Shown here one piece after another: positions 2,979-40,439 of a stretch of DNA of 62,529 nucleotides (within the stretch, counting starts at the first letter, position 1; every line of letters begins with the position of its first letter). The translations under genes were made by a program, and so were the position numbers. The DNA lies in the NCBI GenBank assembly GCA_963169325.1, contig CAUJEY010000016.1, positions 1-62,529 of the forward strand, written 5' to 3'. The stretch comes from Bacteroidota bacterium (GTDB lineage: Bacteria > Bacteroidota > Bacteroidia > Chitinophagales > Saprospiraceae). The notes under the pieces were generated by a model. It was not told the DNA's origin, did no database searches, and saw only the letters and a list, made by a program, of their open reading frames with translations.

Positions 2979-2979
2979 A

Positions 2980-11070: not shown

Positions 11071-11167
11071 TTTTTCTAATTTATCGAGTTTAAAAATTCG
11101 GGCAATAATACCGCAATCTCTTTTCAGCGGCGGCCTTTTTTGGAAAAACGCCGCGTATTAGCGACCG

Positions 11168-11194: not shown

Positions 11195-11230
11195 CGCGGC
11201 TTAACTTATTTTACGCATCAATCTGACATT

Positions 11231-11893: not shown

Positions 11894-11894
11894 A

Positions 11895-21482: not shown

Positions 21483-21897
21483 AAATGTGTTTTTTAAAGT
21501 TTAATTATTTTATGTTATAAAGTAAAAAAACTTGTATTGTGAAGGGAAAGATGAGAAATGGAAGCATTTTTTTGGTTGTATCCAAATGAGCAGGGGAGTT
21601 AAAGTGGCAGAAAAAAGGACGCTCAAAATAAAATTTTTCCTTCCTTTGCAGATGAAACAACGGCAAAACGATTGTTTTACCGTGATTGAAAGTAGAATAT
21701 TTGAAAGGCGATCCCCGACCTGCATCAATATAATACCACATTTCCGCCCAATTCCATCAAATTAAAACAATCTCCGCCTATTATGTTTCCGGGCGGATTT
21801 GGTAATCCGAATTAACCCGTCGTCAGGTTAGCGCGTTTTTTGGCGCGTTGATGCTTTTTTTGATTGTTTGTCAAACTCTTAAACTATACCGGTTTTC
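21483..21897. other. 415-bp AT-rich intergenic stretch, no gene seen
   Basis: Space between the first and second giant genes. It is clearly AT-rich compared with the flanking genes. Short ORFs on both strands lack family features or export signals. Near 21811-21830 a weak 5-bp stem (taacc ... ggtta) is followed by gcgcgttttttggcgcg and a run of Ts at 21855-21861, which might end transcription of the first gene. I could not identify a consensus promoter for the second gene. Confidence 0.5.
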
Positions 21898-24800
21898 ATG
21901 GTAAAAAAACTACTCGTTTTGACGTCAATGCTTTTGATTGTTTTTGAATTAAAAGCGCAACTTCCTCCTCCTTGTCCCACCAACGATTATCCCGCAGCGG
22001 ACCTGTGTGATAATATTTGTATCTACTGTAACTTTAACGGATACATGGGGTCCACGGCCGGTTATTCCGGCCAGACGCCTCCCGGTTTTTGCGGTACGAT
22101 TGAAAATGAGCAATGGTTTGGATTCATTGCAGGCGCTGGAGGGGCTACTTTCACCGCCACTCCGACGAACTGCGCCACGGGGAACGGCGTTCAAATAGCG
22201 CTGTACACCAGTTGCACCAGCACCCCCATCGGTTGTAACGGTGGTACGGCCGGCGGCGGTGCTACTCCGGTGAGCATTACGGCTGCTTTAACGCCCGGGG
22301 TGAACTATTTTTTAATGATTGACGGTTATGCCGGCGACCAGTGTGAATTTACCATTTCGGTTGCCCCGCCTTCGGCCGTTCAGGCGCCCAATGTTGGGAA
22401 TACCGGTCTGCTCGCCGGTGCGATTAATGCTTGCCCGGGCGCTGTTTTGACGTACCAGATTCCGCCGGTTAGCGGAGCGGGCGTTTATGTTTGGAATGCT
22501 CCTGGTGACTGGCTGATTAACGGCCAGTCTCCCCCGGTAAGTTTTCCGGCGCCGGGCGGTAATGTCGTCCAGGTTACCATCGGCAACACGATTGGGAACA
22601 ATCAGCAAATTTGCGTTCAGCCGTTGAACTCCTGCAATGAAGGGGCCCAGGTGTGTAAAAACGTGAATGTACAAAATATTGCTCCCACGATATTGCCGCC
22701 GGCAATAATTTGTTCGGAAGATGTACCGTACACGTTGCCTTGGGGAGATGATGTGTACAACAGTGGATTATATGAAAACACCTATACTTCTTATCAGGGA
22801 TGCGATAGTGTGGTAAAAAAACAAATTACCGTGAAAGCGCCTATTCTTAAATTTTTGGCGCCACAATCTGTCTGTGCCGGCTCTTGTGTCACTATTTGCG
22901 GAGAAGAATATTGTGAAAGCGGCAATTTTGCACATACCTGCGAATCGTTCCAGGGATGCGATAGTATTGTCAACTTTTCTGTGATCGTGCTGGATCCGAT
23001 TGCTGAAATTATTCAAAACGGTATATTATCTTGCAGTAATACTTCAATTCAACTAACCTCAGAGCCATCTCCGGGCACTAAAATATGGAAGAATCTTGCC
23101 GGCCAGGTATTAGGTTCCGGCAACACGCTGACGGTTACGCAGGCCGGCACTTATATTCTGACGATTACTGCTTCGGCCGGTGGGCAATTTTGTATTAAAA
23201 ATGATACGATCGTCATTACAGGAAACACCACGCCGCCTACTGTTTCGACAAGTGGCGGGGTCTTGGGATGCGGCGCTGCACAAGCCCAACTGAATACGAC
23301 AACCAATGCCGCTACCCCGGTATATGCCTGGAGCCCTGCACAGGGCCTGAGTGCCACCAACATTGCAAACCCTGTCGCTACGGCGCCGGGTACCTATACA
23401 GTGGTCGTCACAGACAATGCGACGGGTTGCAGCAATTCTGCAACCGTAACCGTGTCGGGAAATACAACGCCGCCTTCTGCAGCAGCTGCGGGAGGAACGC
23501 TGACCTGTGCGACAACGTCCATTCCTATAAACGCCTCCTCCAATGTGCCTAACGCCACCTTTGCCTGGAGCGGGCCGCCGCCGTTCTCTTCGAACCAGCA
23601 AAACCCGAACGTGTCCGTTTCGGGCACCTACACGGTGACGGTCACGAACCCGACGAACAATTGTACCGCGACTGCTACCACCACGGTATCTCTGAATAAC
23701 ACGGCCCCTGCAGCCAGCGCTACCGGCGGGGTAATCAGTTGTACTACTCCGAATGTGACACTGAACGGGAATTCGCCGACCGGTGGGGTGAGCTACGCGT
23801 GGACCGGACCGAGCGGTTATACTTCTTCCTTTCAAAACCCTGTTGCAGATACTGCCGGCGTTTACACCGTGGTGGTCACTAATCCGACCAACGGCTGTAC
23901 TTCGACCGCTACCACTTCCGTGACCGGTAATACCAATCCGCCCACGGCCGCTGCAACCGGCGGAATAGTAAGTTGCGGTACGCAAAATATCCTGATCAAC
24001 GGCAGTTCCACGACTACCGGCGCTACGTTTGCCTGGGCAGGGCCTAACGGCTTCACGGCCAATATCCCGAACCCATCCGTCAATACCCCCGGTGTGTACA
24101 CCCTTACGGTGACCGGGACCAATAGTTGCACACTAACGGCGACCGCAACGGTAGACGGCGATTTCGATGTGCCGAATGCTTCCGCTACGGGCGGGGTGAT
24201 TACCTGTACGGCATCCAGTACCACCATTACCGGTTCGTCCTCGACGCCGGGAGTTGTATTCAACTGGACCGGCCCAAGCGGGAATCCTTATTCCGGCCCC
24301 ACTCCCACGGTATCGAACATCGGTGTTTATACCTTAACGGTAACTGATCCGACCAATGGTTGTACGACTACTGCAACAGCTTCCGTGGCGCCCGATGCCA
24401 ATGTGCCGAATGTAAGCGCCGCTGGTGGAACGCTGGACTGTAACATTTCCACCATCACGCTCGACGGCGGCTCCACCACAGCGGGTGTTATGCTCAGTTG
24501 GACCGGCCCGAATAACTTTACTTCCACACTTGAAGACCCCGTGATAACGGTATCCGGCACGTATACCCTGACCGTGGTTGACCCAGCCAATGGCTGCACC
24601 GCCGTTGCAACCGCTATTGTGGTGCTGGATGATGACGAACCCGGCGCTACGGCTACGGCCGGAACGGTTACATGTGCCACACCAAGTTTGCCTTTGGCCG
24701 GCTCATCTGCCACGAATAATGTGACATGGGCCTGGACCGGACCGAATACCTTTGTTTCCAACCTGCAAAATCCGACAGTGATGGATGCCGGGGATTATTT

Positions 24801-27800
24801 CCTCGTCGTTACCGGAACAAACGGATGTACGTCCAGCGCCATGGCTACGGTTTTGGCCGATCAGACCCCACCCGTTCCGGCTTCTACCACCGGTACGCTT
24901 ACCTGCGCGCTTACCAGCCTTGCCCTGAACGGCAGTGCTAATGTGCCGGTAACATACTCCTGGGCCGGCCCGAACAATTTCACTTCTACAGACCAAAGCC
25001 CAAGCGTTACGCTACCGGGCGACTATACCCTTACCGCTACTGCGGATAATGGCTGCACCGCTGCTACGACGGTAACCGTTGGGGAAGATATTGCTGCGCC
25101 GGATGTCACTGCCGGCGGCAATACGATCACTTGTTCTGCGCCTCAGGTACCCCTGAGCGGAGGTTCCATCACACCGGGCGCCATTTTTGCCTGGTTGGGG
25201 CCGAATAACTTCAGTTCTGCCGATCCTAATCCCGTTGTGGATGCCAATGGCGGCTATTTACTGACCGTAACCGGCCCGAACGGCTGTACGGCTACGGCAA
25301 CAGCCGATGTATTGTTAGATACCGAAGCGCCGCAGGTAATTGCGCAATCGACAGGCGTATTGACTTGCTCCGCAACTACGATAACCGTGGCTACTACGGC
25401 TACAAATGCGACTTCGCCGATCCAATCCTATCTTTGGAACGACGGTTCCATCGTTGAAGACCTTTCGGTATTGGCGCCCGGTACTTATACCGTAACCGTT
25501 ACTTCTGACAACGGTTGTTCAACTACGGCCTCTGCCGCAGTAACGCAGGATATTGTACCGCCGGCCGTTAGTGCACAAGGGGGTACCTTGACCTGTTTGA
25601 TCACGTCCATCTCTTTGAACGGTGGTTCGATCACACCGGGGGCTACCTTCCTGTGGCAGGGCCCGGGCGGTTACTCCTCTGCTTTGGAGGATCCGAGTAT
25701 CGATGTGGAAGGTACTTATACCCTGACAGTGACCGGCCCGAACGGATGCACGTCCACGGAGTCTGCAACCGTGGTATTGGACGGCGACTTTCCGGATGCT
25801 GTGGCACAATCGAGTAATGACCTGGATTGCAGCCTGATCAATACCACCCTTCAGGCGAACAGTGGTACTCCGGGTGTCACCTATTCCTGGACGGATACTT
25901 CCGGTACGATTGTCGGCAACAGCCAGACTATTACGATCGACTTGCCCGGTGTTTACCAGGTGGCCGTCACTGCGCCGAATGGTTGTGTGACAAACGCAAA
26001 TGTTGCCGTTTTACAAGATATTACCCTGCCGGGTGCAACAGCTACCGGCGATACTATAGATTGCATTTCCGGCCAGACCAGCCTGATCGGCGCCGCACAA
26101 GCTGCGGGCGTTACCTGGAAATGGAGCGGCCCGAATCAGTTTACCTCGAATCAGCAAAATCCGGTGGTTTCTGTGGCAGGCACCTATAATTTAACCGTCA
26201 CGGGCACAAACGGATGTACGTCTACTGCTACGGCTTTTGTAGAAGAAAATAAAGACTCTCCCGAGGTGACCGTTGCCGGTACAGGCACGCTGACCTGCGA
26301 CGTTACCAGCCTACCGCTTTCCGGAACGATCAATACGGCGGGCGCAACAGGCGTCTGGACCAGCCCGGCGGGAGCGGTTATTTCTACCAACGACACGGTA
26401 ACCGTCTCCGCTCCAGGGGTGTATACTTATACCGTAACGGCGTTGAATGGCTGTATTTCAGCACCGACGATAACGATCGCTGAGAACGTGCAAACGCCTC
26501 AAAATGTGGTTGTCAATGGCGGGTTGATTAACTGTAAGACGCCGACTCTTTCGTTAAAAGCGAGCACTTCCACGCCTAACGTGACTTTTGTTTGGTCCGG
26601 TCCGGGTGGCTTTACTTCTACGGAACAAAATCCGCAAACTGATACCAGCGGTACGTATACGGTCTTACTGACCAACCAGGCGAACGGTTGCGAAGCGACG
26701 GCAGTTACTTTTGTTACCGAAGATTTTGTGCAACCTGATATTACCGTGGTTACGGAAACCATTACCTGCACGAAGCCTGCGGTTGTCTTGAACTCCACTA
26801 CCGTGACGTCGAGTGTGGTGTATAATTGGGCCGGCCCGGATATTACCGCTACCAATCAGAAAAAGGCGGACCCAAGCATCACCAAGCCCGGTACCTATAC
26901 GGTTACAATAACCAACCAAATTAATGGATGTACGTCTACGTTTTCCATTGACGTGGATGCAGATGTAACGGCGCCTGATATTTCAACCACAGGTGTTACG
27001 CTTACCTGTACTACCCCGACCAACACGATCACCGGTTCTTCACAAACGCCCGGCGTTACTTTCGCCTGGACGGGGCCCGGCGGCTTCGTGTCCAACCAAC
27101 CCAGTCCGACGGTTACCTTAACCGGGGATTATACGTTGACGGTGACCGCGCCGAACGGTTGCACCAGCACCTCTGTCGCCGCTGTAGTACCAGATGCCAG
27201 TCTTCCGCAAGTTACGGCAACCGGCGGCTTACTGACTTGTGCCATCACCAGCATACAGTTGCAAGCCACGGCAAACAACCCGAGCGTGACTTGGCAATGG
27301 TCGGGCCCGGGCGGCTTTACGTCGACAACGCAGAATCCTGATATTACCGTTGCCGGCAATTACACGGTTGTCGTTACGGCTCCGAACGGATGTACGGCCT
27401 CGACAGCGGTACAGGTTGCGGCAGACACCAATGGGCCGAGTGTTGTTACCAGTGTTCCGGATGAACTCAATTGTACTACCACGCAGGTGTCTTTGAGTGC
27501 CAACGTTGCGGCGCCCGGTTCCTACACCTATCAATGGACCACTCAAACCGGCAATATTATTTCCGGCGCTTTTTCGCAAAGTCCGGTCGTAAGTTCTGCT
27601 GCGGTGTACACGATATTAGTGACCAATCTCGGAAACGGTTGTACTTCCACGAAAGATGTTCCGGTCGTAGTTGATTCGACTACCGTTGCCGGCGCTGTGC
27701 TGGCTGTACGCGATGTTTCATGCTTTGGTAAAACGGACGGTGTGGTCGGCGTGAGCAGTGTGATCGGCGGTACGCCGACCTTCTTATACTCGCTTGATAA

Positions 27801-28473
27801 CCTGCCCTTCGTATCGGGCTCTACCTTTACTTCTCTGCCGCCCGGCGCCCACTCTCTGGTAATACAGGATGCCAACGGTTGCGAATGGGAAACCTCGATC
27901 ACGATTGGCGAGCCGGAAGAATTACTGGTTGAGCTGGGACCGAATGTCACGATCCACCTGGGCCAATCTATTCAACTTGACCTGAATAACACGGTCAATT
28001 ACCCGGACAGGGTAGTACAAACGATCTTCGACCCGTCGAGCATGGACAGCGTATTCTGTCCTACCTGTACGGGGGTGTTATATCCGACTAATTCCTTCCG
28101 GTATTTCATGACCGTGGTGGATTCCAACGGATGTAAAGCAACGGACAATCGCACCATAATCGTGGATAAAACCCGTTGGGTTTATATTCCGAACTCTTTT
28201 GATCCGAATTCGACAGGCGATAACAACCTGCTCTATATTTTCGGGGGAGAAGACGTCGTTCAAATCAAGTCGTTCCGGGTTTTTGATCGTTGGGGTAACG
28301 CTGTGCATGAGTATTTTGACTTCCTGCCGAATACACCTTCATCAGGTTGGGACGGCTCGGTGCGTGGCGACAAAGCAAATCCCGGCGTATACGTGTACTA
28401 TGCGGAAATCCTGTTCAAGGACGGCGAAACGATACTCTACAAAGGGGATGTGACCTTGTTCAGAAATAATTAA
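21898..28473 (+). CDS. Giant repetitive adhesin-like protein with CHU_C end (paralogue A)
   Basis: A 2191-residue exported protein. Order: signal peptide (MVKKLLVLTSMLLIVFELKA), a Cys-rich N-terminal domain of ~135 residues (CDNICIYCNFNGYMGS, QWFGFIAG, YFLMIDGYAGDQCEF), a PKD-like unit, a Cys-paired linker (GCDSVV twice), then about 20 Ig-like repeats of ~78 residues. Each repeat carries a central Cys, a WxGP motif and an ending such as GTYTLTVTGPNGCTSTATA. An SprB-like repeat (VRDVSCFGKTDGVVGV) and the CHU_C domain (WVYIPNSFDPNSTGDNN, VFDRWGNAV, GVYVYYAEI) close the protein. The next gene shares the whole design, so the pair is a tandem duplication. It is followed by a strong terminator. Probable cell-surface adhesin or filament; ligand unknown. 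Confidence 0.9.
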   Translation: MVKKLLVLTSMLLIVFELKAQLPPPCPTNDYPAADLCDNICIYCNFNGYMGSTAGYSGQTPPGFCGTIENEQWFGFIAGAGGATFTATPTNCATGNGVQIALYTSCTSTPIGCNGGTAGGGATPVSITAALTPGVNYFLMIDGYAGDQCEFTISVAPPSAVQAPNVGNTGLLAGAINACPGAVLTYQIPPVSGAGVYVWNAPGDWLINGQSPPVSFPAPGGNVVQVTIGNTIGNNQQICVQPLNSCNEGAQVCKNVNVQNIAPTILPPAIICSEDVPYTLPWGDDVYNSGLYENTYTSYQGCDSVVKKQITVKAPILKFLAPQSVCAGSCVTICGEEYCESGNFAHTCESFQGCDSIVNFSVIVLDPIAEIIQNGILSCSNTSIQLTSEPSPGTKIWKNLAGQVLGSGNTLTVTQAGTYILTITASAGGQFCIKNDTIVITGNTTPPTVSTSGGVLGCGAAQAQLNTTTNAATPVYAWSPAQGLSATNIANPVATAPGTYTVVVTDNATGCSNSATVTVSGNTTPPSAAAAGGTLTCATTSIPINASSNVPNATFAWSGPPPFSSNQQNPNVSVSGTYTVTVTNPTNNCTATATTTVSLNNTAPAASATGGVISCTTPNVTLNGNSPTGGVSYAWTGPSGYTSSFQNPVADTAGVYTVVVTNPTNGCTSTATTSVTGNTNPPTAAATGGIVSCGTQNILINGSSTTTGATFAWAGPNGFTANIPNPSVNTPGVYTLTVTGTNSCTLTATATVDGDFDVPNASATGGVITCTASSTTITGSSSTPGVVFNWTGPSGNPYSGPTPTVSNIGVYTLTVTDPTNGCTTTATASVAPDANVPNVSAAGGTLDCNISTITLDGGSTTAGVMLSWTGPNNFTSTLEDPVITVSGTYTLTVVDPANGCTAVATAIVVLDDDEPGATATAGTVTCATPSLPLAGSSATNNVTWAWTGPNTFVSNLQNPTVMDAGDYFLVVTGTNGCTSSAMATVLADQTPPVPASTTGTLTCALTSLALNGSANVPVTYSWAGPNNFTSTDQSPSVTLPGDYTLTATADNGCTAATTVTVGEDIAAPDVTAGGNTITCSAPQVPLSGGSITPGAIFAWLGPNNFSSADPNPVVDANGGYLLTVTGPNGCTATATADVLLDTEAPQVIAQSTGVLTCSATTITVATTATNATSPIQSYLWNDGSIVEDLSVLAPGTYTVTVTSDNGCSTTASAAVTQDIVPPAVSAQGGTLTCLITSISLNGGSITPGATFLWQGPGGYSSALEDPSIDVEGTYTLTVTGPNGCTSTESATVVLDGDFPDAVAQSSNDLDCSLINTTLQANSGTPGVTYSWTDTSGTIVGNSQTITIDLPGVYQVAVTAPNGCVTNANVAVLQDITLPGATATGDTIDCISGQTSLIGAAQAAGVTWKWSGPNQFTSNQQNPVVSVAGTYNLTVTGTNGCTSTATAFVEENKDSPEVTVAGTGTLTCDVTSLPLSGTINTAGATGVWTSPAGAVISTNDTVTVSAPGVYTYTVTALNGCISAPTITIAENVQTPQNVVVNGGLINCKTPTLSLKASTSTPNVTFVWSGPGGFTSTEQNPQTDTSGTYTVLLTNQANGCEATAVTFVTEDFVQPDITVVTETITCTKPAVVLNSTTVTSSVVYNWAGPDITATNQKKADPSITKPGTYTVTITNQINGCTSTFSIDVDADVTAPDISTTGVTLTCTTPTNTITGSSQTPGVTFAWTGPGGFVSNQPSPTVTLTGDYTLTVTAPNGCTSTSVAAVVPDASLPQVTATGGLLTCAITSIQLQATANNPSVTWQWSGPGGFTSTTQNPDITVAGNYTVVVTAPNGCTASTAVQVAADTNGPSVVTSVPDELNCTTTQVSLSANVAAPGSYTYQWTTQTGNIISGAFSQSPVVSSAAVYTILVTNLGNGCTSTKDVPVVVDSTTVAGAVLAVRDVSCFGKTDGVVGVSSVIGGTPTFLYSLDNLPFVSGSTFTSLPPGAHSLVIQDANGCEWETSITIGEPEELLVELGPNVTIHLGQSIQLDLNNTVNYPDRVVQTIFDPSSMDSVFCPTCTGVLYPTNSFRYFMTVVDSNGCKATDNRTIIVDKTRWVYIPNSFDPNSTGDNNLLYIFGGEDVVQIKSFRVFDRWGNAVHEYFDFLPNTPSSGWDGSVRGDKANPGVYVYYAEILFKDGETILYKGDVTLFRNN
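23000..27690 (+). repeat. About 20 in-frame Ig-like repeats of ~234 bp
   Basis: Tandem coding repeats inside paralogue A. Each unit starts with a two-proline or DxP linker, a GG-x-x-x-C strand (for example ATGGVISCTTPNVTLNG), WTGP or WSGP, and ends NGCTSTATAxV. Units have diverged in sequence but keep length, so the array is old. I counted 20 units by their Cys-containing openings. Confidence 0.85.
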
Positions 28474-28495
28474 TTTCATCGGAATCGTTCTATGA

Positions 28496-28531
28496 AGACC
28501 TCCGCTGCTGACGCGGCGGAGGTCTTTTTTT
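28496..28531 (+). terminator. Intrinsic terminator after paralogue A
   Basis: A perfect 10-bp stem, agacctccgc (28496-28505) with gcggaggtct (28516-28525), a 10-nt loop and seven Ts at 28525-28531. It lies 23 bp after the stop codon of the second giant gene and should separate its transcription from the third. A TATCTCTG (28540-28547), one base off the -7 consensus, follows and may belong to the next gene's promoter. Confidence 0.88.
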
Positions 28532-28568
28532 AATACTGCTATCTCTGTCTCTTAAATTTTAATAACAC

Positions 28569-31500
28569 ATGCTGCGAAAACTACTCCCGTTCGTTCTCAT
28601 TTTCTTTTCGTTTTTGGCTTATGTCAATGCTCAAACCACTCCTCCCTGCCCGACGCCCCCCCCACCGGGAGCGGAATCCTGCCCGACAACTTGCGTTTAC
28701 TGCAATTTTGACGGTTACATGGGGATCAATAACGGTACGCCTTCCGGTGGATCCGTTGTTTGCGGCCAGATCAGTATACATAACGATCAATGGTTTGCTT
28801 TCGTAGCCGGTACGAGCAGTATCACAATTGATATCCTGACCAGCAATTGCGCAAACGGTGATGGGTTGCAAGCGGCTTTTTTTGATGATTGCGCCAGCGA
28901 TGCAATCACCTGCAACGGCGGCAGTGGCGGCGGTGCTGGGATACCGCTTACGCTGTCTTACGGCAGCTTCGTTCCCGGCCAAACCTATTATCTGATGATC
29001 GACGGCTGGACCGGGGATATTTGTAATTATGAAATAAACGTGACGGATGGTTCTGTTTACCCCCCTGCCCCTGCAGCGCCAGATGTGCCGATGGGTCCGC
29101 TCATGGTTTGTCCGGGGGCAACTGTTGTTTACACCATTCCGCCGGTAGAAGGCTCCGGCTATTACCGTTGGACCTCTCCACCCGGTTCCAGCATTAATGG
29201 CGGTAGCAACAACGTATTGTTCGATGCTCCGGAAGGCACGGAAGTAACCATTACTTTCGGTACTGCGGGTGGGCAAGTTTGTGTTCAAACCGGCAACGCC
29301 TGTTTCCCACCCCAAACCAGGTGTATCACGGTGGTCAATCAACCGATTCCACCCACCGTATTACCCCCCATTGTGGTTTGTTACAACGATTTGCCCTATA
29401 TCTGGGAAGAGGCGCCTAATAATGCAATTAGCAGTCCGGGAACATTTACCCTGACTTCGACGCCTTATGATTCGTATTTGGGTTGCGACAGCACGGTACG
29501 ACAGACGATCATTGCAAAACCGCAGATCGTAACGAACCTCGGTTTACTGTTTATATGCGAAGGAACTTGTATGGTGGTAAACGGAACAAGTTATTGTATC
29601 CCTGGAGGGCCATTTCAGGAAACGTATGAATCGTACCAGGGTTGCGATAGTGTCGTGCGGTTTTCGATAGCCATAATACCTACCGTTGCCGTGATTAGTA
29701 CACCGCAAATAATTACTTGTAACACACCGACACTTACGCTGAACAGCAACGGCTCTACCACAGGAGGAGGCGTCACATATTCCTGGACGAATGCTGCCTG
29801 GAATCCAATTGGCAGTCAAACTACACAAACCGTCAATACCGGCGGCGATATTCACCTCATCGTGAGCAATACGGTGGGTACCAAGACCTGTAGAGACACC
29901 GCTACGGTGAGTGTAACGGCCAATAACACACCACCCGGCGTCACGGCACAAGGGGGGATGCTGACCTGCCTGCCCAACGGAAATTCGGTGACGTTGATGG
30001 GGAGTTCACCTACTGCCGGGGTCAATTACTCCTGGACCGGCGCCGGTATTACCCCGGCAAATAAAAATTTACAAAATCCGGTTGTGACGGCTGTAGACAC
30101 CTATGTCCTGACGGTGACTAATCCCACCAACGGCTGTACGTCAACCGCCACGGCTTCCGTGACCGCCAACAATACCCCGCCCTCCGCCACGGCAGCGGGC
30201 GGAACGATTAATTGCGCGCAACCGGCCTTTACCATCAATGGCGGCTCAAACGGCATTACGCCGGCTTATGTGTGGAGCGGCCCCGGGATCAACGCGGGCA
30301 ACATGACACTCGAAGACCCGCCTGTAACCGTACCCGGTATTTATTCCGTAACGGTTACGGATGTGGCTACCGGTTGCACCAATACCGCTTCCACCATAGT
30401 TGATGAAGATACGGCGTTGCCCACGGCTAATGCTGGAACGGATCAAACCATTACCTGCGCCCAAAGCAATGTCACATTGAGCGGTAGCGGTACTCCGGCC
30501 GGCGTCACCTACAATTGGGCAGGCCCTGCATTCCCCCCGGCTAATCCGGCCTTGCCTAACCCGTCGGTTGATCAACCCGGAACCTATATTTTGAATGTAA
30601 CCAATCCGGTAAACGGATGCGTCAAAAGAGATACGGTAGTTGTCGGCGTCTCACTGCTTCCGCCGGCTGCGGATGCCGGCGCGGACAAAACGATTACCTG
30701 TACGACTACAAGTGTCGTTTTGGGTGGAAACGGCTCCAGCCAGGGTGCTGATTTTCAGGCCGTATGGACCGGCCCCGGTATTAACGCCGGCAATGCCAGC
30801 CAATACAATCCGACAGTGAGCGATCCGGGTGCATATACGCTAACGGTTACAAATGTCACAAACGGATGCACTACGACGGACGCTATTACCATAAACCTTA
30901 ACGTCGATCTCCCAACAGCAAATGCCGGGACCGACCAAACGCTGACCTGTACCACAACCTCGGGTGTAACGCTCAGTGGAAACGGCACCCCGGCAGGTAT
31001 AACCTATTTGTGGAGCGGGCCCGGCGTTGGCGCCAACAATGAAACCCAGCAAAACCCGCAGGTTTCACAGGAGGGGCTCTATACCCTTCAGGTGACCGAT
31101 CCGGTGAACGGTTGCACGAGTACCGATCAGGTAGAGGTTTTCCAGGATGCTAACGTACCGGACGCCAGTGCCGGTCCGGATTTGAAATTAAATTGTCAAA
31201 CGACTCTTGTCGATATCAACGGTTCCGGCTCCTCCGCCGGACCGGATATCGTTTACGAATGGACGGGGCCTGGCATCACCCCCAATAATATGAACGACCA
31301 AAGTCCGGCAGGCATCACGCTTCCTGGCACCTATAATTTGACCGTAATCAATACCACCAACAATTGCGAAAACACGGATATCATCGTTATCGCGATCGAT
31401 ACCATTTCACCCAAGGCTGATGCCGGCGCCGACCTGGTGCTCAATTGTTACAACAACGGCGCCGATACCCTGAATGCCTCTGCATCCAGTACCGGTGCGA

Positions 31501-34500
31501 ACTTTACCTACAACTGGGCCGGGCCGGGTATTAATGCCGGAAATCAAACCCTGTTGAATCCGGTAGTATTGCAGCCGGGGAGTTACGATTTGGTGGTAAC
31601 CAATACACAAAACCACTGTACGGCAACCGACCTGGCTGTTGTAGCCGACAATCAGGTACCACCAACAGCCGATGCCGGTAGTAACCAGATTATTAATTGC
31701 GTCGTAACCTCGACGGTCATTGGGGGTAATTCTTCCTCCGGGCCCGATTTTAAGTATGTCTGGACGGGTCCGGGCATTGATGCCGCCAATGAAACGCTGG
31801 CGCAACCGACCGTTGATGCCGCCGGCAACTATCAAATCCTGGTGACGAACACGATAAACGGCTGTACCGCTACCGATGCAAACACGGTGGTGCTCGATGC
31901 CATTTATCCGACCACATCCGCCGGGAACGACCTGACACTCACTTGTACCGATCCGGTCCAGGTATTGGACGGCGCAGCCTCCAGTTCCGGCCCCGATTTT
32001 CAGACACAATGGACCGGTCCGGATATCAATGCAGGTAACACGGGCACCTTATCGCCCAATATTGCCCTGCCCGGCACTTATATCCTGACGATCACTAATT
32101 TAACCAATAGTTGCAAAACCATTGATACGGTTTTGGTCGCGGAGAATAAAGTGGCCCCGGCCGTTTCGGCAGGGCCAGATTTGAGACTTGACTGCCAGAC
32201 GACTACATTGGTGCTCGATGGCAGCGGTTCTTCCGTCGGAACTACCTTTGCCTACCTGTGGAGCGGCCTCGGAATACAACCGGGCGCGGAAACCGAGCAG
32301 AGTCCCACTGTGGATATGCCGGGAACTTATTCCTTGCTGGTTACGGATACGGACAACGGCTGCACGGCCACCGATGATGCCGTTATAACCCAGGATATCG
32401 TTGCGCCGGCTGCCAGTGCAGGATTAGGTATTACCCTGACCTGTGCGCAGAGTACGCTCGCGCTGGATGGCTCCGCCTCTAGCGCGGGTCCCGATTTTGA
32501 GTATCTATGGCAGGGGCCTGGGATAAACACATCCAATTTTAATGTGCAAAATCCGATGGTGAGCGATTCAGGCACCTACCTTCTGACGGTGACCAATATT
32601 CAAAACCATTGCACCACAACGGCCGAGGTGTACGTGGCCAAAGACGGCGATTTTCCGGCGACGAATGCGGGTACCGATCAAACGTTGACCTGTGCGATTG
32701 ATACCCTTCAACTCGATGGCAGCGCTTCGCTCACCGGGCCTGGGATCACCTATTCCTGGAGCGGACCGGGCATTGTGGCAGGGGAAGAAACCAGCGTTAC
32801 GCCTAACGTGTTTACCCCGGGCGCCTATACCTTAACCGTTTCGAATACGAATAACGGCTGTAGCGCTACGGATATCGTCAATGTCGGGCAGGATATTTTA
32901 ACGCCCATCGCAGATGCCGGCACCGATCAGACCCTGACCTGCGCCACCGCTTCGGGTATTACCCTGACGGCAGCCGCTTCCAGTACCGGACCCGACTTTA
33001 CCTTGCTGTGGGGCGGTCCCGGGATCGATGCGAACAACCAAAATTTACTGGAGCCGCTCGTCGCCGTGTCGGGCACGTATACCGTGACGATCACCAATAC
33101 CGTAAACGGCTGTACCAGCACGGATGAAGTAGTAGTGGGTCAGGATCAGAACCTGCCCAGCGCCAGCGCGGGTATCGATCAAACGATCACCTGTGCGGTC
33201 GACAAGGTCGTGCTCGATGCCAGCGGTTCTACCGGAAACGGTACGCTGGAGTTTGGTTGGACTGGTCCGGGTATTAATGCGGGGAACCAATCGGAAGAGT
33301 TACCGACCGTAGATCAACCCGGCGTGTACATCCTGACGGTAACGAATGCGACCACCGGCTGCACCGCCATGGATATGGTGGAGGTATTTCTCGACAACCA
33401 GCCGGCCCAGGCCACGGCCACCGGTGGCACTATTACCTGTACGGCCTTACAAATTACCATTTCGGCTACCAGCTCGATTCCGGGCTCCCTTTTCTCCTGG
33501 ACCGGACCGGATATTGACCTGGGCAATATGAATCTGCAAAATCCGCCTGTGGAAGACCCCGGAAACTACATTGTCGTGGTAACGGCGCCGAACGGTTGTA
33601 CCAGCTCGGCAACAGCGGTGGTCGGCATAGACGCAAATGTACCGACCGGCTCGGTGGAAGGCGCCCAGTTGAATTGCGCTAACAACGGCACCGGTGTTAT
33701 CAGTGGTACGGTAATGACGCCGGGCGCCACTTTTTCCTGGACGGGGCCTAATGGATTTACCTCCACGGTAATGAGCCCTACCGTTACCGTGGCAGGCATT
33801 TACGTGTTTACCATCGTATCGGCCAACGGGTGTAAAAAACCGTATGATGTGGAAGTTACATCCGATTTCACCGCGCCGACGGTTTTGGCCTCGGTAAGTG
33901 ATCAATTGGATTGTAGTACGACATCCGTGACCATTAACGGCGCAGGTACTTCGACCGGCCAGAGTTTCACGTACGCATGGACAACCGCCGACGGCAATAT
34001 CGTTTCAGGAGCCAATACACTGAAACCCGTGGTAGATGCACCTGGACAATACATGTTGTTGGTGACCAATATTTTGAACGGTTGCACCAATTCCACAACC
34101 GTGGGCGTGGTGTATGATCCTTCCGTACCGACGGCCTTCAATCTCAGTGTTCAAAATATTCGTTGTTTCGGCGAGTTGAACGGCTCAATAACGGTAAATA
34201 GCGTGACCGGCGGCACCCAACCTTTCCTGTTCTCGTTCAATGGCGGAACGGCCGCTGGAACGGCACAGTTCACCAAACTTGGCGAAGGGGACTACTCGAT
34301 CATGCTGGAAGACGCGAAAGGCTGCACCCTGGATACGGTGGTTAGTATCACCGCCCCGGGCGCGCTTCAGGTGGACCTCGAAGATGATTTGCTTGTTCCG
34401 CTTGGCACCGGTATCACGGTAACGGCTACCATTACCGGCACCACGCCGGTCGCATCCATTACCTGGAACCCGGTTCCGCCATGCCCGACGGCAGATTGCC

Positions 34501-34907
34501 TGACCTATGATACACTGCCTACCCGCTCGTATTTGCAGGGTATTACCGTGGTGGATATCAACGGCTGCCGTTCCGTCGATCAGCAACTGATACAGGTGGA
34601 CCGCAGCCGGCGCATCTTCGTGCCGAACGTATTCAACCCGAACAGCAGCGATCCGATGAACTCTCAGCTTATGGTGCAGGGCGGCAACGACGTGCGGCGG
34701 ATCAAAACCTGGCAGGTATTCGACCGTTGGGGCAATGCAATTTTCAGTCAGGATGACTTCCAGCCCAATGACGCTACCCATGCCTGGAAAGGCAAAGCCC
34801 GCGGCGATGATGCGCCTATGGCAGTCTACGTCTGGTATATTGAAGTGGAATTTATCGACGGCGAAACCGAGCAGTTTAAAGGAGACGTGACGCTGCTGCG
34901 GAATTAA
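28569..34907 (+). CDS. Giant repetitive adhesin-like protein with CHU_C end (paralogue B)
   Basis: A 2112-residue paralogue of the preceding protein: signal peptide MLRKLLPFVLIFFSFLAYVNA, the same Cys-rich N-terminal domain (CPTTCVYCNFDGYMGI, QWFAFVAG, YYLMIDGWTGDICNYEI), a PKD-like unit, Cys-paired linkers, then about 18 Ig-like repeats averaging 82 residues. Most repeats here use the linker ADAGTDQTLTC and WxGPGI, unlike the ATGG form of paralogue A; the last three revert to the ATGG-like form. An SprB-like repeat (NIRCFGELNGSITV) and CHU_C (IFVPNVFNPNSSDPMN, VFDRWGNAIF, APMAVYVWYIEVEF) end it. It should be exported and surface-attached like its neighbour. Confidence 0.9.
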   Translation: MLRKLLPFVLIFFSFLAYVNAQTTPPCPTPPPPGAESCPTTCVYCNFDGYMGINNGTPSGGSVVCGQISIHNDQWFAFVAGTSSITIDILTSNCANGDGLQAAFFDDCASDAITCNGGSGGGAGIPLTLSYGSFVPGQTYYLMIDGWTGDICNYEINVTDGSVYPPAPAAPDVPMGPLMVCPGATVVYTIPPVEGSGYYRWTSPPGSSINGGSNNVLFDAPEGTEVTITFGTAGGQVCVQTGNACFPPQTRCITVVNQPIPPTVLPPIVVCYNDLPYIWEEAPNNAISSPGTFTLTSTPYDSYLGCDSTVRQTIIAKPQIVTNLGLLFICEGTCMVVNGTSYCIPGGPFQETYESYQGCDSVVRFSIAIIPTVAVISTPQIITCNTPTLTLNSNGSTTGGGVTYSWTNAAWNPIGSQTTQTVNTGGDIHLIVSNTVGTKTCRDTATVSVTANNTPPGVTAQGGMLTCLPNGNSVTLMGSSPTAGVNYSWTGAGITPANKNLQNPVVTAVDTYVLTVTNPTNGCTSTATASVTANNTPPSATAAGGTINCAQPAFTINGGSNGITPAYVWSGPGINAGNMTLEDPPVTVPGIYSVTVTDVATGCTNTASTIVDEDTALPTANAGTDQTITCAQSNVTLSGSGTPAGVTYNWAGPAFPPANPALPNPSVDQPGTYILNVTNPVNGCVKRDTVVVGVSLLPPAADAGADKTITCTTTSVVLGGNGSSQGADFQAVWTGPGINAGNASQYNPTVSDPGAYTLTVTNVTNGCTTTDAITINLNVDLPTANAGTDQTLTCTTTSGVTLSGNGTPAGITYLWSGPGVGANNETQQNPQVSQEGLYTLQVTDPVNGCTSTDQVEVFQDANVPDASAGPDLKLNCQTTLVDINGSGSSAGPDIVYEWTGPGITPNNMNDQSPAGITLPGTYNLTVINTTNNCENTDIIVIAIDTISPKADAGADLVLNCYNNGADTLNASASSTGANFTYNWAGPGINAGNQTLLNPVVLQPGSYDLVVTNTQNHCTATDLAVVADNQVPPTADAGSNQIINCVVTSTVIGGNSSSGPDFKYVWTGPGIDAANETLAQPTVDAAGNYQILVTNTINGCTATDANTVVLDAIYPTTSAGNDLTLTCTDPVQVLDGAASSSGPDFQTQWTGPDINAGNTGTLSPNIALPGTYILTITNLTNSCKTIDTVLVAENKVAPAVSAGPDLRLDCQTTTLVLDGSGSSVGTTFAYLWSGLGIQPGAETEQSPTVDMPGTYSLLVTDTDNGCTATDDAVITQDIVAPAASAGLGITLTCAQSTLALDGSASSAGPDFEYLWQGPGINTSNFNVQNPMVSDSGTYLLTVTNIQNHCTTTAEVYVAKDGDFPATNAGTDQTLTCAIDTLQLDGSASLTGPGITYSWSGPGIVAGEETSVTPNVFTPGAYTLTVSNTNNGCSATDIVNVGQDILTPIADAGTDQTLTCATASGITLTAAASSTGPDFTLLWGGPGIDANNQNLLEPLVAVSGTYTVTITNTVNGCTSTDEVVVGQDQNLPSASAGIDQTITCAVDKVVLDASGSTGNGTLEFGWTGPGINAGNQSEELPTVDQPGVYILTVTNATTGCTAMDMVEVFLDNQPAQATATGGTITCTALQITISATSSIPGSLFSWTGPDIDLGNMNLQNPPVEDPGNYIVVVTAPNGCTSSATAVVGIDANVPTGSVEGAQLNCANNGTGVISGTVMTPGATFSWTGPNGFTSTVMSPTVTVAGIYVFTIVSANGCKKPYDVEVTSDFTAPTVLASVSDQLDCSTTSVTINGAGTSTGQSFTYAWTTADGNIVSGANTLKPVVDAPGQYMLLVTNILNGCTNSTTVGVVYDPSVPTAFNLSVQNIRCFGELNGSITVNSVTGGTQPFLFSFNGGTAAGTAQFTKLGEGDYSIMLEDAKGCTLDTVVSITAPGALQVDLEDDLLVPLGTGITVTATITGTTPVASITWNPVPPCPTADCLTYDTLPTRSYLQGITVVDINGCRSVDQQLIQVDRSRRIFVPNVFNPNSSDPMNSQLMVQGGNDVRRIKTWQVFDRWGNAIFSQDDFQPNDATHAWKGKARGDDAPMAVYVWYIEVEFIDGETEQFKGDVTLLRN
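29690..34130 (+). repeat. About 18 in-frame Ig-like repeats of ~247 bp
   Basis: Tandem coding repeats inside paralogue B. Typical unit: (A/T)DAGTDQTLTC, a Ser/Gly strand, WTGPGINAGN, a Pro-containing strand, then YTLTVTNxxNGCTxTDxV. Units 4-15 share the DAG type; the flanking units resemble paralogue A, suggesting that an inner block was amplified separately. Confidence 0.85.
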
Positions 34908-35763: not shown

Positions 35764-37401
35764 ATGATTGATCAGACGCCACCTAAATCCCGGGTACAAT
35801 TGCCCCTGATACTTGCCGCCGTATTGGCCGGCGGTATGTTTATCGGGCAGCAACTGCCCCGTTACGAACAAAATGTACGTTTTTTACCGAATAGTTACAA
35901 AACCGGCCAGGTCGCCGGCGCGTTGGATGAAATACTGCGGTACATCGATGCCAAATACGTGGACACGGTGGACCTGGATGCAGTGAAAAAAGGCGCTATC
36001 ACCCACTTGCTCGAACAACTCGATCCGCATTCCGTGTATATCAGCCCGGATGAGCTGCACCACGTGGAAGAAGATATGAGTGGCAATTTCGAGGGTATAG
36101 GCATTGAGTTTCTGGTGGTGGACGACACGATCCAGGTCGTGACGCCGCTGGCAGGCGGCCCCTCCGAGACAGCCGGCATTCAGGCCGGCGATAAAATCGT
36201 CACGATTGCCGATTCGATCGTGGCCGGGGTCAAGGTGAATAATGCTTCCATTTACAAACGATTACGCGGCGCGAAAGGCACCACTGTTAAAATAGGCATC
36301 CTGCGAGGCGTCGAAAAAAACCTGCGTCATTTCAACGTTGTCCGCGATGTCATTCCGGTGCACAGTGTGGATGTGGCTTATATGCTGGACGACCAAACAG
36401 GTTACCTCAAAATCAATCGTTTCAGCGCACCCACATACCAGGAATTTATGGAATCGCTGCGGCCCCTGGTGGAAGAAAAAGGGATGCGAAACCTGGTGCT
36501 CGACCTACGCGGCAACCCCGGCGGTTATCTCAATGAAGCAACCGAACTGCTGAGCCAGTTTTTTGGAGACGGCAAATTGCTGGTGTACACGCAGGGTCGA
36601 ACGGAGGAGCGGCGGGAATACACGAGCAACGGCCGGGCCCGCTTCGATATTCAGAACATTGCCGTCCTGATCGACGAAGGTTCGGCATCCGCCAGCGAAA
36701 TTGTGGCTGGCGCCATACAGGATCACGACCGCGGCTGGGTAGTCGGCCGGCGTTCCTTCGGCAAGGGCCTGGTGCAGGAGCAGTACCCGCTCAGCGACGG
36801 CGGCGCTATCCGGCTCACTGTTTCGCGCTACTACACTCCCAGCGGGCGCAGTATTCAGCGCGATTATAAAAACGGCAAAGACTACGACCACGAAACGGAC
36901 CGGCGCCTGGAAAACGGCGAACTGTCCGATGCCTCCAAAATAACGGTAGAGGACAGCACAAAATACTATACCGGTTCCGGTCGTATCGTATACGGCGGCG
37001 GCGGGATTACGCCCGATGTTTTTATCCCCCTGGATACATCTTATGCCAATGATTATTTCTTCGATGCGCGTCAAAATCTGGCCCAATTCGCCTCCCGCTG
37101 GATGGAAGGACGCGACCGCAGTACTTTGCCGGCCACCGCGGATGCGTTTGTGCGGCAATTCCAGGTAAGCAACCCGGTTTTTGAAGAATTTATAAGCTAT
37201 TTAGAAAAACAAGGGGTGGCGCGCAACGACAAACAACTGGCCGAATGCCAGCCAGAATTGCGGCTGCAACTCAAAGCCCGCATAGCCAAAGCGCTGTTTC
37301 AGGACGAAGGACTGTACAAAGTGTTGAACGACGACGACCCGGCCGTGGAAAAGGCTATACAGGTTTTGAAGAGTGGTGCGCAGGTGGCCAGGCGGCAATA
37401 A
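35764..37401 (+). CDS. C-terminal processing peptidase (S41, CtpA/Prc type)
   Basis: A periplasmic serine protease that trims or degrades proteins from the C-terminus. One N-terminal membrane anchor or signal (VQLPLILAAVLAGGMFIGQQ, ~11-30) is followed by a helical cap, a PDZ domain (~110-195, including GIGIEFLVVDDTIQVVTPL and AGIQAGDKIVTIAD) and the catalytic core: LDLRGNPGGYLNEA, GSASASEIVAGA with Ser ~309, and SFGKGLVQEQ with Lys ~334. The 545-residue length is normal for Bacteroidota CtpA. The C-terminal helical tail is intact. It converges with the ligand-gated channel gene, with one base between the two stop codons. Confidence 0.95.
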   Translation: MIDQTPPKSRVQLPLILAAVLAGGMFIGQQLPRYEQNVRFLPNSYKTGQVAGALDEILRYIDAKYVDTVDLDAVKKGAITHLLEQLDPHSVYISPDELHHVEEDMSGNFEGIGIEFLVVDDTIQVVTPLAGGPSETAGIQAGDKIVTIADSIVAGVKVNNASIYKRLRGAKGTTVKIGILRGVEKNLRHFNVVRDVIPVHSVDVAYMLDDQTGYLKINRFSAPTYQEFMESLRPLVEEKGMRNLVLDLRGNPGGYLNEATELLSQFFGDGKLLVYTQGRTEERREYTSNGRARFDIQNIAVLIDEGSASASEIVAGAIQDHDRGWVVGRRSFGKGLVQEQYPLSDGGAIRLTVSRYYTPSGRSIQRDYKNGKDYDHETDRRLENGELSDASKITVEDSTKYYTGSGRIVYGGGGITPDVFIPLDTSYANDYFFDARQNLAQFASRWMEGRDRSTLPATADAFVRQFQVSNPVFEEFISYLEKQGVARNDKQLAECQPELRLQLKARIAKALFQDEGLYKVLNDDDPAVEKAIQVLKSGAQVARRQ

Positions 37402-37402
37402 G

Positions 37403-39556
37403 TTACGTTTTGTAAATCAAATAAAACAGCATTAAAAACAGGATAAGCAGCAAATACGGAATCCAGACTTTGCTGCTCATTCTAAATATACCCCGTTTTT
37501 TAGCGGCGGCCGATACCGGTCTGCTGCCTACTTTTTGCCGGTCGATGTAGGCGACGTAGATGAAGCAGAAGAAGTTGATCGCCAGCGTGAGCATCAGGAA
37601 AATATAGGCGAGGTTCATTGAATCCGTCGCGGGCGAAATCTGCACAAGGTTGATGGAGTAGGCCACCGTGGCGAGGAAAGAGGTGATGATGAGTTCGCCC
37701 ACTTCTTCAAAAGTGGCTTTGTGGAAAAACAACATGAATATCGGCAGGGCGCTGAACATGATGAAGGGCAGTATCACGAGGATAATGGCCCCCCAGGGTT
37801 CGCGGCTCACGCGCAGGTGGACGTTCAGGGTTTTGTATTTTTCGAAATTCCGGGTGCTGTCAATGGGGTCGAAGGTGGCTTTATAAGGCGACCCGATCGC
37901 GTTCGACACGTTGTTGTCGAGCGTGATGTAATACGCCTCGGTGTTCCAGTCATTCATTTGGAAATCAGCGATTTTATCCCTTACCTGCAGGCGACTGTAG
38001 TCGAAACTGATTTTGATATTGTTGCTCGAACTGAGCGCCTCGATGGGGATTTTGATTTCGTGGCGGTCGAAGGGGAACGCGAACGACACGAAGTTGCCCA
38101 GGAATTGGCCGCTGATGCGGTACAGGCGCAGTACGCTGCCGTTGGTGTCGGGTTCTTCCGCGATGAGGTACCGGGATTCGGGGTCGTTTATGGTGGCAAA
38201 ATCGATGTAGCCTTCTTTTCTGATATAGTTCGAATCTACGATTACCCAATAGAGCAGGTTGCAGTTGAAGGTGTTTTTTCGTATATCTATGTCGTTTATG
38301 TCGACAATGTCGATGCCTACGTGCAGATTGGGGATAGTGTCGCCCTCGGTGTTAATTTGGGTGGGGCAACTGCGGGTGCGGCCATACTGGATGCTGTTGA
38401 AAGCCGGCTCCCGTTTGAGAATCAGCGTACTGTCGAACTCGTATAACTCATTAAAAATCGAAATTTTGCGGTTTTTCAGATTTTTGAAATACGTCACCAA
38501 TGCCGTCCGGTGGGTATGGCCGGCTTTCAATGCCGTTTCAAAAATATTCATGGCATCGTAGCAGCGAAGCAGGGTGTTTTGCGCGGTGCGCACCTGGAAA
38601 AACCGCCCCGGAAACTGCTTGTCAATTTTTTCTTTGAGCAAATGCGGCTCTTCCGGAAGCAATTCTTCGGCAGTTTCATATCGAATAACCGTGTGTCCTT
38701 TTTCTTTAGTCAGGGTCTGCAATTCTGAATCTTTCAGGTTCGTCATGCCTGAAATGCCGACTATGGTTTTGGGCTTAATTTCGCCTTTGCCTGCTTGCTG
38801 CAAGGCGCGTATGACGAGGTTGCCATAGGCGCTGTGCAGGTTGAGCAAAATATATTTTTCCGTTGTCGCGGCCAGCGCCCTTCTTATTTTTCGAATGACC
38901 CGGGGTGTATCTGTTTCCGGCACGAGGTTGTTCACGAGGCTGTCCTGTTTGAGTATCAGCAGCGTATCGCAAGGCAGTCCGTATTTTTCTATAACTTTTT
39001 TAAACTGTTCGTGGAGCAAATAATCGTTTTCGGTGATAAAACCCACGGAAGGCGCCTTCAATACTTTTTGGATAAAATTGGCGAGGTAGAACGGCTGCGG
39101 GTCGTTGGGCTCCATAAAAATGGCGTTGTTGCCAAACAGTGTGTCGTTTTGGTCGGCCGTCATGGAAATCACGGGCAATTGATCGCGGATGATATCGCGT
39201 GCATGGCGGATGTGCCGTCCCCAGGTATTGTCCACGACCAGCGCGATATTCGTGTCGGCCAAAATGCTGTTGTATATCTGCTGAATGGTATCCTCCTGAA
39301 AATCGCATTGAAACGCGCGCAGACGGTATTCATAAGGGTATTCCGGTTGCTGCGAATTATTGATGCGATGCAGATACGCTTCCAGGGCAAGCATGTGCAG
39401 CGAGTCGGAGAAGTTGTTGCGCCGGGCTTTGAGCGGGTCTTCAAAGTTGAATCCCACAAAGGCGACGTATTTCACCGGGCGGTTGAAAATTGATTTTTTG
39501 CAAGCGAAATGCGCCAGGAAAAAGAGCGCGGTCAAGCCAAAAATGATTTTTTGCAT
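37403..39556 (-). CDS. Pentameric ligand-gated ion channel fused to periplasmic-binding domain
   Basis: A 717-residue protein joining a sensor and a channel. After an export or lipid signal (residues 1-19, ending HFAC, not a canonical lipobox), residues ~28-395 read as a type I periplasmic-binding fold (YVAFVGFNF, NIALVVDNTWG, QLPVISMTADQND, SVGFITENDYL, TIVGISGM). Residues ~410-585 match the extracellular domain of prokaryotic pentameric channels: IDIVDINDIDIRKNTF, then the pro-loop SFAFPFDRHEIKI (~492-503), DWNTEAYYI and LNVHLRVSRE. Four membrane segments follow at ~588-611, 619-640, 646-671 and 695-715. By hand alignment to GLIC the M2 helix gives Glu at -2', -1' and 2' (E617, E618, E621) and Leu at 9' (L628), suggesting a cation channel. 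Ligand unknown. A NIPSNAP lipoprotein gene lies 67 bp upstream on the same strand. Confidence 0.9.
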   Translation of the reverse strand: MQKIIFGLTALFFLAHFACKKSIFNRPVKYVAFVGFNFEDPLKARRNNFSDSLHMLALEAYLHRINNSQQPEYPYEYRLRAFQCDFQEDTIQQIYNSILADTNIALVVDNTWGRHIRHARDIIRDQLPVISMTADQNDTLFGNNAIFMEPNDPQPFYLANFIQKVLKAPSVGFITENDYLLHEQFKKVIEKYGLPCDTLLILKQDSLVNNLVPETDTPRVIRKIRRALAATTEKYILLNLHSAYGNLVIRALQQAGKGEIKPKTIVGISGMTNLKDSELQTLTKEKGHTVIRYETAEELLPEEPHLLKEKIDKQFPGRFFQVRTAQNTLLRCYDAMNIFETALKAGHTHRTALVTYFKNLKNRKISIFNELYEFDSTLILKREPAFNSIQYGRTRSCPTQINTEGDTIPNLHVGIDIVDINDIDIRKNTFNCNLLYWVIVDSNYIRKEGYIDFATINDPESRYLIAEEPDTNGSVLRLYRISGQFLGNFVSFAFPFDRHEIKIPIEALSSSNNIKISFDYSRLQVRDKIADFQMNDWNTEAYYITLDNNVSNAIGSPYKATFDPIDSTRNFEKYKTLNVHLRVSREPWGAIILVILPFIMFSALPIFMLFFHKATFEEVGELIITSFLATVAYSINLVQISPATDSMNLAYIFLMLTLAINFFCFIYVAYIDRQKVGSRPVSAAAKKRGIFRMSSKVWIPYLLLILFLMLFYLIYKT

Positions 39557-39623: not shown

Positions 39624-40439
39624 TCAGAAATCGGAATAGCCGGTCGGGTGCAGCAGGTAGCTGTCTATTTTCGATACATTCCGCGGTTTGTATTCGGGTA
39701 GCGCCGTCATGGTTTTCCATTCCGGGCTATCTCCGAATGCCTTCCAGTGCGCCGCTCTGGCCGCCGCGTTGTCGAAACAAATCATATATACCAGGTTCGG
39801 CATATGGGCTCCGGACAATGCTGATCCGTAAAAAACGGCGTTGAACCCGAGTTTCCGGAACAGGCCGATTTCATCCGCCACATTGAACATGTGTACTTTA
39901 TTGACATGGAGTTTTTCCGTGGCGCTTTCGTAGCTGCGTATTTCGTAAACCCGTTCGTTGCGCGGCGTTTTGATGTTCGGAACCTCCATCCGGGGGTTTC
40001 CGCTGAACGCGGACAGCCAACTGATTTCCATCCGTTGGTAGGGTGGGGTGTCGTTTGTGGCGTTCCAGTAGGCTGCGCCGGAGGTCTCGTGTTGCTTGTC
40101 GTTTTGCAGGGTTTGCGGCAGTTGGGCCAGCGCATCCAGCGAGCGGGCGGGAATCAACACGAATATCCGTTTTCCGGCATTGGCCGTATCACTTTCCAGA
40201 GGTTTGAATACGCCGATGTTGCTCCAGCCGGCCCGGTGCAGAGTAGGCAGAAAGGCCTGTTGCAGATAGTTGTCGACGAGTTGTTCCTGGGTTTTGTCCT
40301 TGATGTGGTAGGTTCGGAGTTCGTAAAAATCGCCTTGAGCGGTTGTTTTTGAGGTTTTGGAGGGGGTTGAACAGCCGGTAAGGAAGAAGGGAATCAATAT
40401 GACCAGGCCGATGAAAATGCGAAGTTGATTGTTATCCAT
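39624..40439 (-). CDS. NIPSNAP-family lipoprotein
   Basis: A 271-residue envelope lipoprotein: N-terminal helix LRIFIGLVILIPFFLTGCST with lipobox LTGC (Cys ~23). It contains two ferredoxin-like NIPSNAP domains, residues ~36-130 (FYELRTYHIKDKT, LHRAGWSNIGVFKPLES) and ~163-265 (VYEIRSYESATEKLHVNKV, LVYMICFDNAAARAAHWKAF). NIPSNAP proteins occur in bacteria and mitochondria and have no agreed biochemical role. The gene precedes the ligand-gated channel in the same direction with 67 bp between, so the two could be one transcript. The start ATG at 40439 gives the complete signal. Confidence 0.9.
   Translation of the reverse strand: MDNNQLRIFIGLVILIPFFLTGCSTPSKTSKTTAQGDFYELRTYHIKDKTQEQLVDNYLQQAFLPTLHRAGWSNIGVFKPLESDTANAGKRIFVLIPARSLDALAQLPQTLQNDKQHETSGAAYWNATNDTPPYQRMEISWLSAFSGNPRMEVPNIKTPRNERVYEIRSYESATEKLHVNKVHMFNVADEIGLFRKLGFNAVFYGSALSGAHMPNLVYMICFDNAAARAAHWKAFGDSPEWKTMTALPEYKPRNVSKIDSYLLHPTGYSDF

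Follow-up and report, generated by a model that had tools for sequence, protein, structure and literature searches.

An open reading frame (ORF) in a Saprospiraceae genome raises the question of whether a pentameric ligand-gated ion channel (pLGIC) can carry a periplasmic-binding protein (PBP) of its own and what such a protein may sense. An earlier note, made from the letters of this DNA, had claimed a channel fused to a periplasmic-binding domain at positions 37403-39556 of the window, i.e., the whole stretch of 62,529 nucleotides that was analyzed. The ORF is indeed present, lies on the minus strand (37403..39556 including the stop codon, 37406-39556 without it), and encodes a protein of 717 amino acids.

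Domain identity and order of the fusion protein

Computational analyses revealed that the protein starts with a signal peptide region (residues 1-23; 39488..39556), followed by a type I periplasmic-binding or Venus-flytrap domain (residues 24-372; 38441..39487), which was recognized by Pfam, AF2, Foldseek, and hhalign. A linker (residues 373-407; 38336..38440) fills the stretch between the matched domains and leads to the pLGIC extracellular domain (ECD; residues 408-586; 37799..38335), assigned by phmmer, hhalign, and column counts. Four membrane helices complete the protein, and all parts are encoded on the minus strand. M1 (about residues 587-613; 37718..37798) and M3 (about residues 645-676; 37529..37624) were placed by alignment to the channel GLIC and by AF2, M2 (about residues 616-639; 37640..37711) by an ungapped GLIC alignment, from which it is predicted to line the pore, and M4 (about residues 698-716; 37409..37465), which is preceded by a short, variable M3-M4 loop, by AF2. 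Both halves are thus as the note had claimed, and they occur together in a conserved family. The PBP-like half, which the note placed at about residues 28-395, is present with a slightly shorter range, about 24-372 plus the linker.

The fusion is no artifact of assembly, given that the protein is a member of a conserved family: 21 full-length family sequences rule out a misassembly, and the single open frame without internal stop in each of these 21 rows rules out two overlapping genes. In the window, a convergent S41 peptidase gene (35764-37401) ends with only 1 base between it and the channel ORF, and a NIPSNAP-family gene lies upstream of the channel gene on the same strand (39624-40439). 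Further away, three consecutive large ORFs of 2040, 2191, and 2112 amino acids are found at 15360-34907 on the plus strand; the 2112-amino-acid product, a relative of the 2040-amino-acid one, harbors PKD, SprB-repeat, and CHU_C type IX secretion domains. A phage or plasmid origin of the channel gene was rejected, with no tblastn match at an E value of ≤1 in phage and plasmid collections and with no relative among 39 candidates picked from viral contigs. PADLOC likewise yielded no match at an E value of ≤1 that would indicate a defense system.

The C-terminal half was identified as a pLGIC by sequence and profile comparisons. With the single sequence as a query, phmmer matched a GLIC-type chain in the PDB over residues 473-714 (E value, 5.7e-5), and the best 60 of 90 sequences at an E value of ≤10 comprised 58 GLIC chains or GLIC chimeras and two entries named "pH gated chloride channel." A profile built from 14 channel-half sequences matched 71 distinct PDB sequences at an E value of ≤0.01 (best, 4.2e-5), of which the best 60 are all GLIC by name. 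Furthermore, hhalign aligned the channel half with seven short pLGICs of Saprospiraceae (E value, 1.6e-9; probability, 96.3), and a reverse search with the profile of these short pLGICs over 150 genomes of the family recovered the window gene (E value, 1.7e-10). The similarity to GLIC-type channels, which the note had based on alignment by hand, is therefore beyond chance. The channel-family hidden Markov model match that the note had proposed as a check was not obtained with Pfam, whose channel models (Neur_chan_LBD and Neur_chan_memb) matched neither the window protein nor 13 aligned relatives. A search of its own genome with the Pfam membrane domain (PF02932) gave no match but was uninformative, since 14 controls stayed silent as well, and NCBIfam LIC reached an E value of only 0.062 on the window protein. 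We regard this miss of the curated models as outweighed by the sequence and profile similarity to GLIC and the short pLGICs.

In low-confidence AF2 models based on a 14-row alignment, four helices followed the ECD both in the full-length model (mean pLDDT, 60; pTM, 0.46; ECD blocks, about 25-43) and in the channel-only model (mean pLDDT, 47; pTM, 0.29; ECD, 30-60). Of the layout of a beta-sandwich plus four helices, whose absence the note had named as a refutation, the helices were predicted, and AF2 did not resolve the ECD fold. The 50 best Foldseek rows for the weak channel-only model were all pLGICs (best E value, 1.3e-4), and GLIC, ELIC, the nAChR, 5-HT3, GABA-A, and glycine receptors, and DeCLIC were among the matches listed. 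Since the query TM-scores against these pLGICs were 0.18-0.32, we take this result as support and not as proof.

For the N-terminal half, the Pfam model Peripla_BP_6 matched the window protein with an E value of 4.9e-5, which is below the curated cutoff. The same model matched 4 of 14 aligned members at an E value of ≤1 (in two of the 14, the flytrap is missing or mostly missing), and ANF_receptor matched one of the 14 (6.7e-4). Other weak Pfam matches in these members, such as DUF7250 in five and Lactate_perm in one (9.5e-4), were taken as chance. Searched by sequence with the PBP profile, the PDB yielded no chain at an E value of ≤0.1. The AF2 model of the flytrap half, with 10-residue block means of 52-91, matched LivJ-like proteins, GABA-B, and the N-terminal domains (NTDs) of GluA receptors in Foldseek (E values from 2.3e-13; probability, 1.00). 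Moreover, hhalign aligned the flytrap with a set consisting of LivJ, LivK, three Azospirillum flytraps, and a LivJ-type protein from another Saprospiraceae locus (see below), with an E value of 1.9e-5 and a probability of 77.7.

Conserved coupling and pore residues

Column counts over the 21 full-length members revealed that 47 of the 343 flytrap columns counted are invariant, including D109-G113, A134, D135, N137, T175, E176, D178, Y179, N239, and H241. These residues form conserved blocks, among them DNTWG (109-113), ADQN (134-137), TE-DY (175-179), and N-H (239-241), which in the hhalign alignment fall near LivJ contact positions. LivJ holds the backbone of its amino acid through Ser79, Ala100, and Thr102. 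These contacts are not kept in the family: in the alignment, Ser79 corresponds to the invariant Gly113 and the Ala100-Thr102 loop to an invariant ADxN. Judging by these columns, the putative cleft is therefore likely conserved yet not of the canonical amino-acid type. This mismatch bears on the type of ligand and not on the flytrap fold.

Conservation climbs from the flytrap toward the pore. The mean majority identity in the 21 full-length members is 0.67 in the flytrap, 0.83 in the ECD, 0.91 in M1-M3, and 0.95 in M2, with 0.49 in the signal peptide, 0.72 in the linker, 0.36 in the M3-M4 loop, and 0.65 in M4. Among the eight regions compared, M2 ranks first, with 18 of its 29 columns being invariant. 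The prime positions of its residues are given in the GLIC register. At the start of M2, E618 (-1') and G620 (1') are found in 21/21 members, E617 (-2') in 19/21, and V619 (0') in 18/21; E621 (2'), T625 (6'), L628 (9'), and I635 (16') are each present in all 21. The invariant Glu at -1' and 2' together with Leu 9' predict a cation pore. Selectivity for cations is usually conferred by a Glu immediately ahead of M2, according to PMC549065. The Glu at 2' is absent from the aligned GLIC chains and from the short pLGIC relatives and could, as we infer, favor divalent ions.

The elements named in the note were all found: the Pro-loop FPFDRHEIKI (starting at residue 494), the strand LRVSRE (residues 581-586) before M1, and the four membrane segments, which AF2 modeled as helices at residues 587-610, 616-640, 645-676, and 698-716. 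F494, P495, F496, and D497 of the Pro-loop are invariant in 21/21 full-length members, as are the pre-M1 Arg585 as well as W588 and G589. A Pro-loop with an invariant Pro and with an Asp pairing with the pre-M1 Arg is described as a pLGIC feature in the part of PMC4795631 consulted. The disulfide Cys pair that would flank the loop is absent around residues 480-510 of the family alignment. The protein is therefore a Pro-loop receptor, and the note's assignment to the Cys-loop superfamily is right only in the loose sense of that term.

Distribution of the family and related proteins

We next analyzed where the fusion occurs. A contig search of genomes found 13 related loci. Overall, 38 sequences were collected from 40 loci, and 13 were dropped since their last 300 residues were identical to those of another sequence, leaving 25 non-identical sequences, namely 21 full-length and 4 partial ones (L010, L014, L044, and L046). 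L014/L043 and L046 share a genome (G866) and could represent two fragments of a single gene. In the Saprospiraceae genus of the window, 24 of 42 genomes carry the fusion gene, 21 of them with a full-length copy; genome G852, which has a short pLGIC only, was left out of this count. Outside the genus, no long match was found in 199 genomes of the family (112 genera), 348 of the order (151 genera), and 395 of the phylum (171 genera), in samples that overlap and with few candidates scored per genome, so that absence is not proven. The matches outside the genus were two short pLGICs (G020 and G056) and one match of 41 positions in a frame of 62 amino acids (G640). One sequence, L010 (JAKLJF010000636.1), is titled Thermoanaerobaculia. 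Since it agrees with a copy from the window's genus in every one of its final 300 residues, its title or binning is probably wrong.

The gene neighborhoods vary between loci, and neither a conserved operon nor a conserved partner was found: the commonest neighbor, a downstream cluster, occurs in 4 of 14 loci, some of which end at contig edges. With no neighbor common to more than 4 of the 14, the note's description of the receptor as self-contained held. The genome of the window (G000) also encodes two short pLGICs, on contig C139 at 208-1149 (L002/L062) and on contig C348 at 11157-11975 (L083), which brings the number of pLGIC genes in this bacterium to three; hetero-oligomers are therefore possible. 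Short Saprospiraceae pLGICs (L002 and six others) share the ECD and transmembrane domain (TMD) superfamily with the fusion, as seen in the hhalign comparison above, but differ in being without a PBP and in having Asp -2', Arg 0', and Ser 2' in M2.

In other Saprospiraceae, three frames of about 715-720 amino acids, L080 (34-2190, plus strand), L081 (1192-3348, minus strand), and L082 (13-2157, plus strand), carry Cache-type sensor domains before the pLGIC, assigned by Pfam in L080 and L081 and by resemblance in L082. An ORF overlapping the end of the L080 frame resembles binding proteins of the LivJ type, with 18% identity to LivJ itself.

A different combination was observed in Azospirillum. 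Four plasmid records contain eight pLGIC-like matches, and the four in long frames (1033-1168 amino acids) each combine a PBP-I with a pLGIC-like ECD and a pore of the MscS type: L057 (7-3210, plus strand), L059 (148-3363, minus strand), L060 (151-3249, minus strand), and L061 (91-3393, plus strand), carried on plasmids NZ_CP054621.1, NZ_CP012915.1, and NC_013856.1. Pfam MS_channel_2nd matched the three proteins scanned with E values of 3.5e-15 to 4.3e-18, and L059 is 87% identical to L057; L061 additionally carries a cNMP-binding domain. These proteins share with the window family a PBP-I followed by a pLGIC-like ECD, which hhalign aligned colinearly (E value, 1.2e-6; probability, 90.7), but have the MscS-type pore in place of M1-M4. 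On common descent of the two PBP-ECD fusions, the comparisons disagree: the halves alone aligned with weaker E values (ECD-TMD, 1.3e-4; PBP, 3.5e-4), a single BLASTP gave nothing significant, and the ECD of the Azospirillum proteins matches the short pLGICs better (E value, 2.5e-13). In the literature searched, nothing was found on a Cys-loop-type ligand-binding domain (LBD) joined to a mechanosensitive-type channel. Furthermore, on plasmid pAB510b of Azospirillum sp. B510 (L051, 1-6246), a short pLGIC gene (2842-3882) lies in a same-strand gene run with an alanine racemase and two ABC substrate-binding proteins, a context that hints at amino-acid or peptide sensing.

Among characterized channels, GLIC resembles the window protein in its ECD-TMD match (the phmmer E value of 5.7e-5), the Pro-loop, the pre-M1 Arg, and the ungapped M2 with Glu -2'. 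It differs in having Thr 2' and Ile 9' in the alignment, at about 15-17% identity, and presumably in having no extra N-terminal domain. Animal ionotropic glutamate receptors stack a flytrap on an LBD and a pore, and their GluA NTDs were matched by the flytrap model in Foldseek. The parallel is one of logic only: these receptors are tetramers, and their pore and LBD are unrelated to those of a pLGIC.

A PBP-I fused to a channel of this kind is not new, in line with the note's statement that a few prokaryotic channels with PBP-like N-terminal domains had been noted before. PBP-I fused ART-LGICs were described in 2004 in the alphaproteobacteria Magnetospirillum magnetotacticum and Bradyrhizobium japonicum, according to the sections of Tasneem et al. 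consulted (PMC549065), where these channels were proposed to be chemotactic receptors. Compared by the published description in those sections, they share the order of parts, PBP-I to LBD to four transmembrane segments, and belong to another phylum. The architecture of PBP-I plus pLGIC has thus been known since 2004, and the Saprospiraceae form is a variant of it. DeCLIC is also a prokaryotic pLGIC with an additional periplasmic NTD, but this NTD consists of two jelly-roll lobes binding Ca2+ and is not a flytrap (PMC9897478 and PMC12664993, as excerpted). In the excerpt of the latter, a 2025 paper, DeCLIC is called the only pLGIC with a partially characterized N-terminal domain. The portion of a 2016 survey consulted (PMC4795631) does not mention "periplasmic," "PBP," or "N-terminal domain." Our literature search, which covered few subscription papers and judged by titles and the starts of abstracts, found nothing on a Saprospiraceae ligand-gated ion channel and nothing on the PBP-pLGIC family beyond the 2004 paper.

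Possible function of the fusion

Taken together, we consider it probable that the gene encodes a pLGIC subunit of the Pro-loop type with a type I PBP ahead of the usual LBD, forming a self-contained, flytrap-gated cation channel of the inner membrane. Five subunits would assemble into an inner-membrane pore with five flytraps on its periplasmic side. There, a small solute would close the flytrap as the primary sensor, and the movement would pass through the ECD to M2 via coupling between Pro-loop D497 and pre-M1 R585. The pore, presumably selective for cations, with Glu rings at -2', -1', and 2' and Leu 9' as its gate, would then open or close.

The main rival to flytrap closure driving the pore is that the flytrap is a mere allosteric modulator or an assembly domain, comparable to the ATDs of AMPA receptors or the NTD of DeCLIC, and that an agonist such as protons, Ca2+, or an amine binds to the ECD. 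We regard this as the less likely option, though one to be taken seriously: no large domain is less conserved than the flytrap, Ser79, through which LivJ contacts its amino acid, has Gly113 as its counterpart in the alignment, and the closest solved channel, GLIC, is proton gated. The NTD of DeCLIC affects gating kinetics, as stated in the excerpt of PMC9897478. Against a mere modulator, the pattern of invariant flytrap columns suggests that a binding cleft has been kept, and closure of the flytrap by a periplasmic solute is the most likely reading.

Far less probable is that the channel half is a degenerate, non-conducting pLGIC scaffold and the protein a membrane-tethered binding protein. 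The divergence of this half from the curated Pfam models would fit such a loss, but M2 is so strongly kept (0.95, with 18/29 invariant columns) that a dead pore is not expected. Between these two in likelihood, and still doubtful, stands a lipid-anchored channel with its N terminus in the outer membrane. Such a protein would extend across the periplasm and sense envelope spacing or stress plus a ligand. Cys19 closes the signal peptide in all 22 members that have an N terminus (three of the 25 sequences lack it and were left out), whereas by eye 6 of 7 short pLGICs end the signal peptide in Ala-Gln instead, L048 being different. A lipid anchor at Cys19 is thus possible. However, a strict lipobox is found in only 5 of the 22 members; His, Tyr, or Gln is common at position -3, and two members have Arg at -1. 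Some short pLGICs also carry a Cys inside the signal peptide, but away from its end, and the reach to the outer membrane is an estimate from domain heights and not from a model.

Little is known about the physiology of bacterial pLGICs. A channel with its own binding protein makes a natural agonist directly accessible, starting from the soluble flytrap, and, in parallel to animal glutamate receptors, could show how a clamshell motion drives a pentameric pore. A bolder and rather improbable extension would be a flytrap-gated channel restricted to one genus, lipid anchored and passing cations, perhaps divalent ones, with the N terminus fixing the position of the sensor in the outer or inner membrane, and with PBP-I plus pLGIC-ECD as a portable module on two unrelated pores. 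If true, this module would sit on a four-helix pore in Saprospiraceae and on an MscS-type pore in Azospirillum.
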